IMG/VR virus record: IMGVR_UViG_3300009176_000014
Span: 1 to 50,355 of that record
Strand: one strand, 5' to 3'
From: a virus
Length of the DNA: 50,355 bases
Part shown: positions 14,677-22,163 of the stretch, one piece after another
Layout: the number at the start of each line of letters is the position of its first letter
Position numbering within the stretch: position 1 is the stretch's first letter
Made by a program: the position numbers and the translations under genes
The notes under the pieces: model-generated
What the model saw: the letters and a program-made list of their open reading frames with translations, nothing else
The model's database searches: none
What the model was told of the DNA's origin: nothing

Positions 14677-14820
14677 TTATGTGTTTAATGGACTACTATG
14701 TGCTTCAGAAGTCATCACTCCGACCATTGTCGGCAGTTCGTTCTGATTTTTAAGTCTGCGTCCCACAGACAGATAATTTCTTAAAGCAAAATTTTTAATG
14801 TTAATAGCGGCATTAATATC
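14677..14820 (-). ncRNA. Candidate TnpB guide (omega) RNA region
   Basis: TnpB guide RNAs usually arise from the 3' end of the gene and end at the right element boundary. Here the last codons hold a perfect hairpin, CCGAC-AATG-GTCGG on the minus strand (14733-14720). It is followed by a second possible pairing (GACT with AGTC) before the stop. The guide would then read into the start of the 14664 gene. Limits are guessed; only the hairpin is visible directly. Confidence 0.3.
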
Positions 14821-15843
14821 TCTATCATGATTAGTACCACAGATACAAGTCCATTCTCTATCCTTTAGAGTAAGTTCTTTATTAACTCTACCACATGCTG
14901 AGCACATTTTTGATGATGGTTCAAATCGGCCTATCTTGATTATGTTTCGACCGTACCATTCAGATTTATATTCAAGCATTCGAATGAACTCAGACCAACT
15001 TACATCTGCTATTGCTTGGGCTAAATTATGATTCTTAATCATGCCAGATATATTCAGATATTCAATTGCGATAGATTGGTTATCTCGTATCATAATTGAA
15101 GATATTTTATGTAAAAAATCTTTGCGTTGGTTGGCTATTTTCTCATGTAGTAGAGCCAACTTTTGCTTTGTTCTTTTGCCTTTGAATCTTGCGTATTTAC
15201 TTTGAATGTATTTAAGTTTAGACTGAGCCTTGCGCAAATATTTTTGATTATCGAAACGCTGCCCATTCGATGAGACTAAAAATGTTTTTATCCCCAAGTC
15301 AATTCCTATAGTGGTTGATTCCTTTACTTTCGGCTTTGCTTTTTGTTTTACATTAGTTTCACACAATATTGATACAAAATATTTACCAGTGCTTGTGCAT
15401 TTTATATTTGCATTTCTTATCGTACCAATTAAATTACGATGTAAAACAAATCTTATTCCCTCAGTGAATTTAGGTATCTTAATAAGATCACCATATATTT
15501 TTATATTCTGCGGCACATTAAATCCATTGTATGCACTTTTCTTTTTGAATATAGGATATGCAGATTGTCCTTTAAAGAATCTCGTAAATGCGTTATCTAA
15601 ATTAAATATCGACTGCTGTAATGTTTGACTATTTATTTCTCTTAACCATTCACAATCATTTTTTAGATCTGGCAATTGCTTAGTTAAGTCGAAACATGAC
15701 AGATTAATTTTGTTACCAGACCATGCCATTTGCTTAGTCTCAAGGGCTAGATTATAGATAAACCTTGATGCTCCAATATGCTTATTAAGCAATATCTTCT
15801 GATCATCAGTCGGGTACATTCTATATCTAAAAGCCTTTAACAT
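14677..15843 (-). CDS. tnpB: TnpB RNA-guided endonuclease (IS200/IS605 family)
   Basis: A full-length 388-aa TnpB with all RuvC residues: D182 in GIDLGIKTF, E261 in IAIEYLNI and D342 in HDRDINAAINI. The zinc ribbon is C314-x2-C317 and C333-x-C335. The N-terminus MLKAFRYRMYPTDDQKILLN is the usual helix-turn-helix start. TnpB is a guide-RNA-directed nuclease that favours the spread of its element. There is no TnpA here, so it cannot transpose alone; it sits inside a phage operon between cysteine-rich genes. A TATATTTG box lies four bases upstream of its ATG. Confidence 0.95.
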   Translation of the reverse strand: MLKAFRYRMYPTDDQKILLNKHIGASRFIYNLALETKQMAWSGNKINLSCFDLTKQLPDLKNDCEWLREINSQTLQQSIFNLDNAFTRFFKGQSAYPIFKKKSAYNGFNVPQNIKIYGDLIKIPKFTEGIRFVLHRNLIGTIRNANIKCTSTGKYFVSILCETNVKQKAKPKVKESTTIGIDLGIKTFLVSSNGQRFDNQKYLRKAQSKLKYIQSKYARFKGKRTKQKLALLHEKIANQRKDFLHKISSIMIRDNQSIAIEYLNISGMIKNHNLAQAIADVSWSEFIRMLEYKSEWYGRNIIKIGRFEPSSKMCSACGRVNKELTLKDREWTCICGTNHDRDINAAINIKNFALRNYLSVGRRLKNQNELPTMVGVMTSEAHSSPLNT

Positions 15844-17919: not shown

Positions 17920-18167
17920 AAATCATCAAAATTTAACTTCTGTGCTACTTTTTTAGGTCGTGGCATATTTGCCAACCATGTGTTAACAAGCTTCTTAAAA
18001 TCACTTGCTGTACTGTTTTCAAGCCTATCAGGATTAGCAAGTATATGACCAAAGCTTCCGGTAACTGCATCTTCAATGCTCTTACCTTTGTGAATTATTG
18101 ACATGGTTTCAAGCCATTTCTCATCAAGCTGAGATTTCCAATAATCAAGATTCATTTTCTCTTCCAT
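17916..18167 (-). CDS. Hypothetical 83-aa protein
   Basis: A soluble helical protein (MNLDYWKSQLDEKWLETMSI from residue 5). An internal ATG four codons in is an alternative start. It overlaps the HTH gene by 23 bases. The C-terminus ends PRPKKVAQKLNFDDL. No family recognised. Confidence 0.65.
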   Translation of the reverse strand: MEEKMNLDYWKSQLDEKWLETMSIIHKGKSIEDAVTGSFGHILANPDRLENSTASDFKKLVNTWLANMPRPKKVAQKLNFDDL

Positions 18168-18459
18168 GATTCAATAGGTGTGAAATTGAACGAACTGATT
18201 TGTAACCTAGTGCCCGTTGTATTTGCCTGTATGAATAACCTTTTGATCTAAGATCATGAGCAATTACTTTCTTGACTTCAAATTGATCTATCTCAATTTT
18301 CTTAGGAGCCTCTGACACTTTAATTATTATAAATCCAGCGTCTTCAAGTGAAGGCAAAAACAGATCTCTAACAAAATGTCGTGTGCTACCACCGGTTAAT
18401 AAAAACTTATTATCGCATTCACGATAAATTTCTGTAATCTCTTTTACTGTTGCTATCAT
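18145..18459 (-). CDS. Helix-turn-helix DNA-binding protein
   Basis: A 104-aa protein whose C-terminus carries a clear helix-turn-helix (VIAHDLRSKGYSYRQIQRAL followed by GYKSVRSISHLL). The N-terminal half is a mixed fold. It heads the leftward gene string after the structured RNA region, and a TATATTTG box lies four bases upstream of the ATG. It may control the leftward operon or serve in origin recognition. Confidence 0.7.
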   Translation of the reverse strand: MIATVKEITEIYRECDNKFLLTGGSTRHFVRDLFLPSLEDAGFIIIKVSEAPKKIEIDQFEVKKVIAHDLRSKGYSYRQIQRALGYKSVRSISHLLNHGRENES

Positions 18460-18463
18460 GATT

Positions 18464-18471
18464 CAAATATA
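18464..18471 (-). promoter_or_regulatory. -7 box upstream of the HTH gene
   Basis: TATATTTG on the minus strand is an exact TAnnTTTG match four bases before the ATG at 18459, the same spacing as at the TnpB gene. The -33 TTG is not clear. A leaderless transcript is predicted. Confidence 0.45.
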
Positions 18472-18519
18472 CAATATGTATAATAACTTGTATATTAATT
18501 ATAATATTTATTTTTAAGT

Positions 18520-18896
18520 GACATTGCAGAACGAAGATTCCGAATGAGCAGGGTACAGAAAAACAAGTTGCCTCCCCTCCCAAAGAAGCAACTTATCTTC
18601 TGACTCATTGCGTCACGTTAGTTCGTCATTCGCTTTTGGCTGATACCGGGAAACAAGTTACACACCCTCGTATCATTTAACAGATGTAATAGTTTAAGAA
18701 GCTATTAGCCGCCCTTCAGTACGCTTTAAATCGTTGGTTGTCGAAGTGAGGACTTTAACCCTTTAGTCGGGCATGCGGTCGGCAGAAGTCGAAATAGGGC
18801 TGTTAGCGCGAAACCCTAATAAAAAAGGAATCCCCGATAAAATCGAAAGGCGCTAACTCTTTCTCATTCATCAGGGATTCATAAAAATCTTTAGAT
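18520..18896 (-). ncRNA. Candidate large structured non-coding RNA
   Basis: No gene fits this stretch, yet it is dense in perfect stems. Pairs (plus-strand positions): AATGAG 18543/CTCATT 18604, AAGTTGC 18565/GCAACTT 18588, GATAC 18642/GTATC 18670, TAATAG 18687/CTATTA 18702, TAGGG 18795/CCCTA 18814, GTTAGCGC 18802/GCGCTAAC 18850 and GAATCCC 18828/GGGATTC 18874. The last three interleave as a chain of pseudoknots. A consensus promoter ends at 18902 on the minus strand, so the RNA would run leftward for about 380 nt. No known RNA family was recognised. The left limit is uncertain, with no terminator seen. Confidence 0.65.
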
Positions 18897-18901
18897 TCAC
18901 A

Positions 18902-18932
18902 CAAATTTAGCGCAGGCGAATCAATAATGCAA
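18902..18932 (-). promoter_or_regulatory. Bacteroidetes-type promoter of the structured RNA
   Basis: On the minus strand TTG (18932-18930), a 20-base spacer and TAAATTTG (18909-18902) match the -33/-7 consensus closely. The start of transcription would fall near 18896, right at the edge of the paired region. Confidence 0.65.
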
Positions 18933-19813: not shown

Positions 19814-19834
19814 TTGATTTGTAAGCTACCTGCG

Positions 19835-19933
19835 TTATCTCATTTGCCTACTTTTGATGCTCCCACTTCGTTTTAAAATCTTAAATTTCTTTTCAAATAA
19901 GGGAGCGATACAATTTACCGCCCCCGACTTCAT
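19835..19933 (-). CDS. Hypothetical 32-aa basic protein
   Basis: ATG at 19933 and TAA at 19835-19837. The product MKSGAVNCIAPLFEKKFKIL and on is basic. It lies in line with other leftward small genes. The supporting evidence is only composition and orientation. Confidence 0.4.
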   Translation of the reverse strand: MKSGAVNCIAPLFEKKFKILKRSGSIKSRQMR

Positions 19934-20101
19934 CTTTTGCCAATCACTGGTTGGCCTGTCATGCCTTCAAATCTGTTTATCCATTGGACTTATCCCGTTT
20001 TTCCGGGGCCACTGGCAGAAGTTCTTGAGGGGATTCTGTCAGGCTTACTCCCCATGCACACACACAACCTCATGGCTTCTCTATTTGGGCGTGTATTTTC
20101 T
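19934..20101. other. Stretch without a confident gene
   Basis: These 168 bases hold only a 27-codon minus frame (20073-19990) and long + frames that look like shadows. Base composition is richer in C and G than the surroundings. I see no strong hairpin or promoter here. Confidence 0.5.
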
Positions 20102-20309: not shown

Positions 20310-20398
20310 GGAGGAATAGAAAGATTCGAACTTCCGTAAACTCACACAATGCTTATAAGTCCATCGTGCGCTAACCTGGCCACTCAGCTATATTCCCC
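20310..20398 (-). tRNA. tRNA-like gene with abnormal anticodon arm
   Basis: On the minus strand an acceptor stem (GGGAATA with TATTCCT), T8-A9, a D arm with GTGG and AGG, and a perfect T arm (GGAAG-TTCGAAT-CTTTC) define a tRNA of 89 nt. The anticodon arm does not fit the 17-nt rule. Instead CACGATG (residues 31-37) pairs with CATTGTG over a 10-nt loop GACTTATAAG. The anticodon cannot be assigned; TAT would be the reading if CTTATAA were the loop. No CCA is encoded. It lies just behind a promoter, at the head of the leftward transcript. Confidence 0.65.
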
Positions 20399-21542: not shown

Positions 21543-21658
21543 AACTAACCATCACCGACCGCAAGATATTACACTCCATGGCTACTACTCCTATGAGTGA
21601 GAGAATTAAAATTGCTTTAACTAAACTTAAAAATAATGATAACCTCAAAATTAATTGA
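21539..21658 (+). CDS. Hypothetical 39-aa protein
   Basis: ATG at 21539 in the stop of the previous gene, TGA at 21656-21658, overlapping the next gene by 23 bases. The product MKLTITDRKILHSMATTPMS and on is basic and helical. Real by coupling and composition. Confidence 0.55.
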   Translation: MKLTITDRKILHSMATTPMSERIKIALTKLKNNDNLKIN

Positions 21659-22163
21659 ACTAGGCGCTTGCTCAGATGCAAAAGAATGGGCAAAAGGCAA
21701 ATCATGGCAAGAAATATTCACCACATGTCACCGCGGTGATTGGTTATTATGGCTATTCCGAAAAGTCAATCCAGATGATCTTCAAAAATTAACATTGGCA
21801 AAGGCGCATTGCGCTAATACTGTTCGTCATCTAATGAAAGATGATAGATCAAAAAATGCAATTGATGTTGCAATTAAATTTGGCAACGGGGTGGCAACGC
21901 GAGATGAATTGAATGCTGCTGCTGTTGCTGCTTATGCTTATGCTGCTTATGCTGCTGCTGATGCTGCTGCTGATGCTGCTGCTGATGCTGCTGATGCTGC
22001 TGCTGCTTATGCTGCTGCTGCTGATGCTGCTGCTGATGCTGCTGCTGCTGATGCTGCTGATGTTGATCGAAAAAAGGCGCGCGAAGAAAACAGAATGCTA
22101 ACGGCAAACATATGCAGACAATATCTTCCTATTGAGATCTGGAATATTGTTGATGAGAATTAA
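21636..22163 (+). CDS. Alanine-rich protein, Imm5-like putative immunity protein
   Basis: A 175-aa protein. The N-terminus (KEWAKGKSWQEIFTTCHRGD, WLLWLFRKV) and the segment DDRSKNAIDVAIKFGNGVAT fit the Imm5-like 'putative immunity protein' family, known for alanine-rich helical repeats. Residues 93-143 are almost only Ala, Asp and Tyr, built by GCTGCTGAT-type repeats. The C-terminus IWNIVDEN is normal. In bacteria such proteins neutralise toxins. The role in a phage is unknown; counter-defence is an inference. Confidence 0.65.
   Translation: MITSKLIELGACSDAKEWAKGKSWQEIFTTCHRGDWLLWLFRKVNPDDLQKLTLAKAHCANTVRHLMKDDRSKNAIDVAIKFGNGVATRDELNAAAVAAYAYAAYAAADAAADAAADAADAAAAYAAAADAAADAAAADAADVDRKKAREENRMLTANICRQYLPIEIWNIVDEN
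21914..22066 (+). repeat. Trinucleotide/nonanucleotide repeat coding for Ala/Asp/Tyr
   Basis: About 150 bases made of GCT triplets interrupted by GAT or TAT, often as GCTGCTGAT units. It lies in frame in the Imm5-like gene. All three frames on both strands are open across it, which explains the long shadow frames there. It is prone to slippage. Confidence 0.85.

Follow-up and report, generated by a model that had tools for sequence, protein, structure and literature searches.

A predicted structured RNA ahead of an HTH gene on the minus strand of a phage of Bacteroidota-type bacteria

The minus strand of the window (the whole virus record analysed here, 50,355 bases) very probably carries, from 18897 to 18555, an element that is structured at the level of RNA. 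Comparison with one related phage shows a discrete conserved block, its strand, and base pairing that is kept by compensation in hairpins B and D and in helix C. We lean towards reading it as a structured RNA, non-coding and stand-alone, about 343 nt long, with a separately promoted HTH gene after it, which accounts for the sequence better than a leader of that gene does. The element, of some 340 letters, matches no catalogued family and was seen in one other virus only; a new and small family of RNA is therefore probable. A sequence-only reading of the region had proposed a promoter-driven, minus-strand structured RNA of a possibly new class, with chained pseudoknots and reminiscent of GOLLD or ROOL; the promoter, the strand, the structure and the lack of an Rfam family are supported, kinship with GOLLD and ROOL is not, and the chained pseudoknots are weakened.

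Results

Genomic setting

Genes for a terminase, an exonuclease, a chitinase-type lysis protein and a glycosyltransferase were found in the record, and the host of the virus is a Bacteroidota-type bacterium. On the minus strand, genes run leftward between about 20.4 kb and 13 kb, and rightward genes begin at 20.5 kb. The stretch 18520-18932 lies between a 104-aa HTH-like gene and the next leftward ORFs and holds no credible gene, as had been proposed. The tRNA-like gene that had been reported in the region is present at 20311-20397 (minus strand), albeit with a score of 33 bits and an anticodon loop that is too large, and ARAGORN does not accept it. Just upstream of this gene (20441-20409) stands a promoter-like TTTG-N-TANNTTTG. 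The features discussed below are collected in Table 1.

Table 1. Features of the predicted RNA and its surroundings (MFE, minimum free energy fold)
Feature	Position	Strand	Basis
Promoter-like site TTG-N20-TAAATTTG, Bacteroidota -33/-7 type	18902..18932	-	Conserved in the relative
Predicted structured RNA, ~343 nt	18555..18897	-	Identity with the relative, compensated pairs
Hairpin A: GAATCCC/GGGATTC stem, inner GAAAG/CTTTC, 9-nt loop AGTTAGCGC	18828..18880	-	Single-sequence MFE
U6 tract after hairpin A, terminator-like	18822..18827	-	Bacteroidota terminators matched by A+B model
Hairpin B (TAGGG/CCCTA), loop GCGCTAAC	18795..18818	-	Single-sequence MFE and G-C to A-U compensation
Helix GACUU/AAGUC enclosing hairpin GCCC/GGGU	18751..18790	-	RNAalifold; invariant
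Possible H-type pseudoknot CUGCC (18785-18781) / GGCGG (18713-18709)	18709..18785	-	Complementarity only; invariant
Helix C CUUCG/UGAAG	18714..18746	-	U-A to C-G compensation
Hairpin D GAUAC..GGG/CCC..GUAUC	18641..18675	-	Single-sequence MFE; G-C to A-U compensation
Hairpin T, U-rich 3' arm (GTTTTTC), terminator-like 3' end	18555..18601	-	Identity drop to 71% after it
Dyad AATATACAA-N13-TTGTATATT overlapping -7 box TATATTTG (18475-18468)	18466..18496	-	96% conserved in the relative
Downstream gene, 104 aa, weak HTH (LexA_DNA_bind below cut-off)	18145..18459	-	
Arms TAGGG / CCCTA	18795 / 18814		Named in the sequence-only reading
Arms GTTAGCGC / GCGCTAAC	18802 / 18850		Named in the sequence-only reading
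Arms GAATCCC / GGGATTC	18828 / 18874		Named in the sequence-only reading

Stems and folding energy against chance

All of the arms named beforehand lie at their positions and cross as described. The number of long stems does not exceed what shuffled sequence gives: six Watson-Crick stems of at least 7 pairs were observed, against 4.7 in dinucleotide shuffles. When the span was limited to 100 nt the counts were five and 1.8, and the observed value was equalled or exceeded in 9 of 200 shuffles. Two of the long stems, CGAATGA/TCATTCG and GAATGAG/CTCATTC, are both broken in the relative. Folding energy is only moderately low for 441 nt of the minus strand (z -2.3) and unexceptional for the predicted transcript alone (z -1.4); for the plus strand z is -0.6. 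With stem number at chance and energy only moderately low, it is the comparison with the related phage that carries the case for an RNA.

A conserved block with sharp edges

This relative, the contig IMGVR_UViG_3300003323_000274 (G001), was found by scanning with the HTH protein. The two phages are 92.1% identical over the 343 nt of the minus-strand block, with 25 substitutions and 2 gaps; the HTH gene is 84.6% identical (67% at third codon positions) and the gene after it 73%. Identity is 50% upstream of 18937 and 97% over the promoter (18932-18898). It then stands at 96% over hairpin A, whose 53 nt including the loop hold no substitution, at 94% from B to E, at 86% over hairpin D and the stretch that follows, and at 92% over hairpin T, before falling to 71% in the 21 nt past hairpin T and returning to 96% where the HTH gene has its operator and promoter. 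The edges of conservation, at the -33 box and just past the terminator-like hairpin, would outline a unit running from 18932 to 18555, with a start near 18897 and a length of about 343 nt. The genes upstream differ between the two phages, so that the mosaic edge falls at the promoter, and in both phages the RNA block travels together with the HTH gene.

Promoter, ends and downstream operator

The minus-strand promoter proposed in the earlier reading is borne out as a promoter-like site that the relative conserves, and it is one of seven TTG-N18..21-TAnnTTTG sites on the two strands of the 50 kb. The Bacteroidota box has the consensus TAHHTTTG and stands 4-5 nt before the start of transcription (PMC6847099); since the box here ends at 18902, the predicted +1 lies near 18897, the base at which a short hairpin AAUC/GAUU would also start. 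A third copy of GCGCTAA is found in the promoter spacer (18907-18913). In G001 two overlapping promoter-like boxes stand in tandem ahead of the RNA (positions 2427-2485 of locus L001). On the far side of hairpin T, the HTH gene has a -7 box of its own, and the dyad over that box is a probable autoregulatory operator.

Pairing kept between the two phages

In a curated fold of 90 pairs, three pairs are compensated, four have one-sided changes that keep the pair, and none is broken. The TAGGG/CCCTA stem, which was named before any relative had been seen, reads UAAGG/CCUUA in the relative. A G-C to A-U exchange is seen in hairpin D, which the single-sequence fold already contains, and a U-A to C-G exchange in helix C, which came up only with the alignment. 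Ten substitutions fall within pairs of the curated fold without a break, against 7.9 breaks on average when they are placed at random, albeit in a fold that was partly chosen with G001 in view. The window's own MFE, made without the relative, holds two compensations (0.19 expected, p 0.014) and six broken pairs (7.9 expected), with a joint probability of 0.006. When the same substitutions were placed at random, 200 times for each strand, the RNAalifold energy was matched or beaten once on the minus strand and 32 times on the plus strand, and the wobble changes agree with the minus strand. Control (a), which has little power with two rows, gave 65 of 500, and sliding the partners leaves no double change. 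The outer helix closing the 5' and 3' ends has its 5' arm inside the promoter and was for that reason dropped from the fold.

The earlier reading was to be given up if homologues showed no covarying pairs. Compensatory changes of the kind expected from a structured RNA appear in TAGGG/CCCTA and in two further pairs, in a comparison of two close sequences, too few for statistics of the R-scape type.

Loop-loop contact and possible pseudoknot

The crossing of the named arms stands, but the chain of pseudoknots reduces to one loop-loop contact and one possible H-type pseudoknot. The loop of hairpin A (AGUUAGCGC, 9 nt) and that of hairpin B (UUUCGCGCUAACAG, 14 nt) contain a perfect 8-bp complement, and the CUGCC/GGCGG pairing would span the GACUU/AAGUC helix. 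Both are possible contacts that we put forward as proposals; they are invariant in the two phages and thus without covariation.

Hairpin A as a possible terminator

Together with its U6 tract, hairpin A looks like a Bacteroidota transcription terminator, a form that the sequence-only reading missed. When a model of A plus B (R2) was run on Bacteroidia genomes, its matches were terminators directly after genes, with the same stem and U tract as hairpin A (GAAUCCC..GGGAUUC, U6), for instance AAATCCCCGATATC..GGTATCGGGGATTTTTT at locus L151. Hairpin A differs from these in being unchanged between the phages and in that compensated structure continues past it. Its terminator-like form makes a 75-nt product possible, alone or beside the long RNA.

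Search for further homologues

The Infernal search of Rfam that had been suggested matched no family, at the gathering threshold or at E<=10, and returned only unrelated chance matches far below threshold. When IMG/VR was scanned for four patterns taken from the RNA, only G001 was recovered, the other matches being chance ones, mostly in coding DNA; the kissing-loop pattern gave 19 matches in genome contigs, all by chance. A protein-led search with the HTH gene yielded only G001 and a distant HTH fragment, and MW202476 was dismissed as a carrier since no RNA lies beside its HTH match. The RNA is absent from the phage relatives reached through the terminase (79 loci, most of them fragments), and models run on about 50 related phage records, many fragmentary, gave no further homologue. 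With blastn, INPHARED and PLSDB returned AT-rich scraps or nothing, and a sample of 395 Bacteroidia genomes returned chance matches only. In the same 395 genomes the covariance model R1 reached 22-25 bits, but inside protein genes, and these matches were rejected; good-looking partial alignments to R1 evidently arise by chance.

A second non-coding gap in the window (19814-20101, minus strand) reads ACTTCTGCC-N-hairpin-AAGTCC...GGGCGG and resembles the RNA at 18897-18555. The block 20100-19830 and the RNA both hold CTTCTGCC-N-AAGTCC. Within the window, R1 scores nowhere better outside the RNA itself than in this gap (9.6 bits, E=1.1); in an unbiased plain alignment it ranks nowhere and is not significant, and a pattern built from the 20100-19830 block found chance matches only. 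It is possibly a diverged paralogue of the RNA, which is unproven.

Comparison with known RNA systems

The sequence-only reading had not recognised the RNA as GOLLD or ROOL, and this stands; the kinship it was reminded of does not, and membership was rejected on sequence grounds. There is no Rfam match at any threshold. With these RNAs the element shares its phage origin, a structured and non-protein-coding nature, a tRNA-like gene in the region and loop-loop contacts, the contact being a proposed one here. GOLLD exceeds 800 nt (PMC12286853) whereas the present RNA has about 343 nt, and in place of a tRNA island there is one degenerate tRNA-like gene, 1.4 kb away. A normal 66-bit tRNA is present elsewhere in G001.

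A tmRNA was discarded, ARAGORN and Rfam finding no tRNA-like domain or tag frame, as were group I and II introns and RNase P, whose Rfam models up to E=10 give no core match. The order of promoter, pseudoknotted RNA (the pseudoknot here being putative), terminator and small gene is shared with type III toxin-antitoxin RNAs of the ToxI type. However, tandem repeats are absent, the gene resembles an HTH regulator and not the ToxN nuclease, and PADLOC, NCBIfam and Pfam detect no adjoining toxin, so this system was rejected. The phage has an IS605-type TnpB (Cas12f1-like) gene at 14677-15843 on the minus strand, with no relative found in G001. An omega RNA was rejected since the RNA neither overlaps nor follows the 3' end of tnpB; it lies 2.7 kb away, and the RNA also occurs in G001, where no TnpB could be recognised. 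Elsewhere in the window, the protein at 21636-22163 contains a long Ala/Asp-rich repeat run (AADAAADAAAD...), and its counterpart in G001 is 75% identical.

Discussion

As a stand-alone RNA, the element would have a Bacteroidota-type promoter of its own on the minus strand, with transcription starting near 18897 and ending near 18555 at the terminator-like hairpin; both ends are predicted positions. The HTH gene, with its separate promoter, comes after it. The loops of A and B may touch in cis or between molecules, and partial termination at hairpin A may provide a 75-nt form that accompanies the long RNA. Expressed with the leftward early genes, the folded RNA would act in trans, with a protein or another RNA as its probable binding partner. 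Against a stand-alone RNA count the finding of the element in only two close sequences, the choice of helix C with the homologue in view, the MFE z of -1.4, and hairpin A with its U6 tract, at which transcription would be expected to terminate after about 75 nt.

The last point leads to the rival that we take most seriously, though we think it unlikely: a cis-acting leader (attenuator), in which transcripts begun at 18897 or in the upstream operon run into hairpin A and then hairpin T, and folding between the two sets the read-through into the HTH operon. Both hairpins have the form of terminators, genuine-looking Bacteroidota terminators after genes are what the A+B model finds, and the HTH gene starts 95 nt past T on the same strand and accompanies the block in both phages. 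However, that gene has a conserved -7 box and dyad operator of its own between T and its start codon, conservation drops to 71% between T and the HTH promoter, and hairpin B, being downstream of A, cannot act in cis on termination there. That the stems are coincidental features of a conserved DNA control region, with no RNA function, would fit the chance-level stem number, and with two sequences the three compensations could be luck; we give this very little credence since the conserved edges coincide with promoter and terminator, the curated fold has no broken pair, and the wobble changes fit the minus strand.

The same pairing evidence, which favours RNA over DNA structure, bears on a replication or recombination element with a locally acting transcript, such as a structured RNA that primes an origin near the divergent operons. 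The junction of the leftward and rightward operons is near, and a very AT-rich stretch (18520-18466) follows the structured RNA, but neither iterons nor a replication initiator gene were recognised beside it, and we regard this as only slightly less improbable than coincidental stems. ROOL and GOLLD are held together by kissing loops (PMC12286853), and the 8-bp complement between the loops of A and B, perfect and invariant in both phages, might form such a bridge here. A cage-forming or self-assembling RNA of that style, built through the A-B contact, is nevertheless the least credible of the alternatives: the RNA is smaller, it matches no Rfam family and has no tRNA island, and the contact is without covariation and may be intramolecular. 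The broader proposal is a phage RNA of a new class, folded through a loop-loop contact, that during infection assembles with itself or binds a host factor, and of which this phage may have a second, diverged copy at about 20055-19900; we consider it improbable, albeit less so than the three readings just weighed.

Large structured phage RNAs are few and mostly without a known function. The stand-alone RNA favoured here would add an example from a Bacteroidota phage, a claim whose weight is limited by the two sequences. Being compact, with a defined promoter, a terminator and a testable loop-loop contact, such an RNA would lend itself readily to deletion, probing and imaging.
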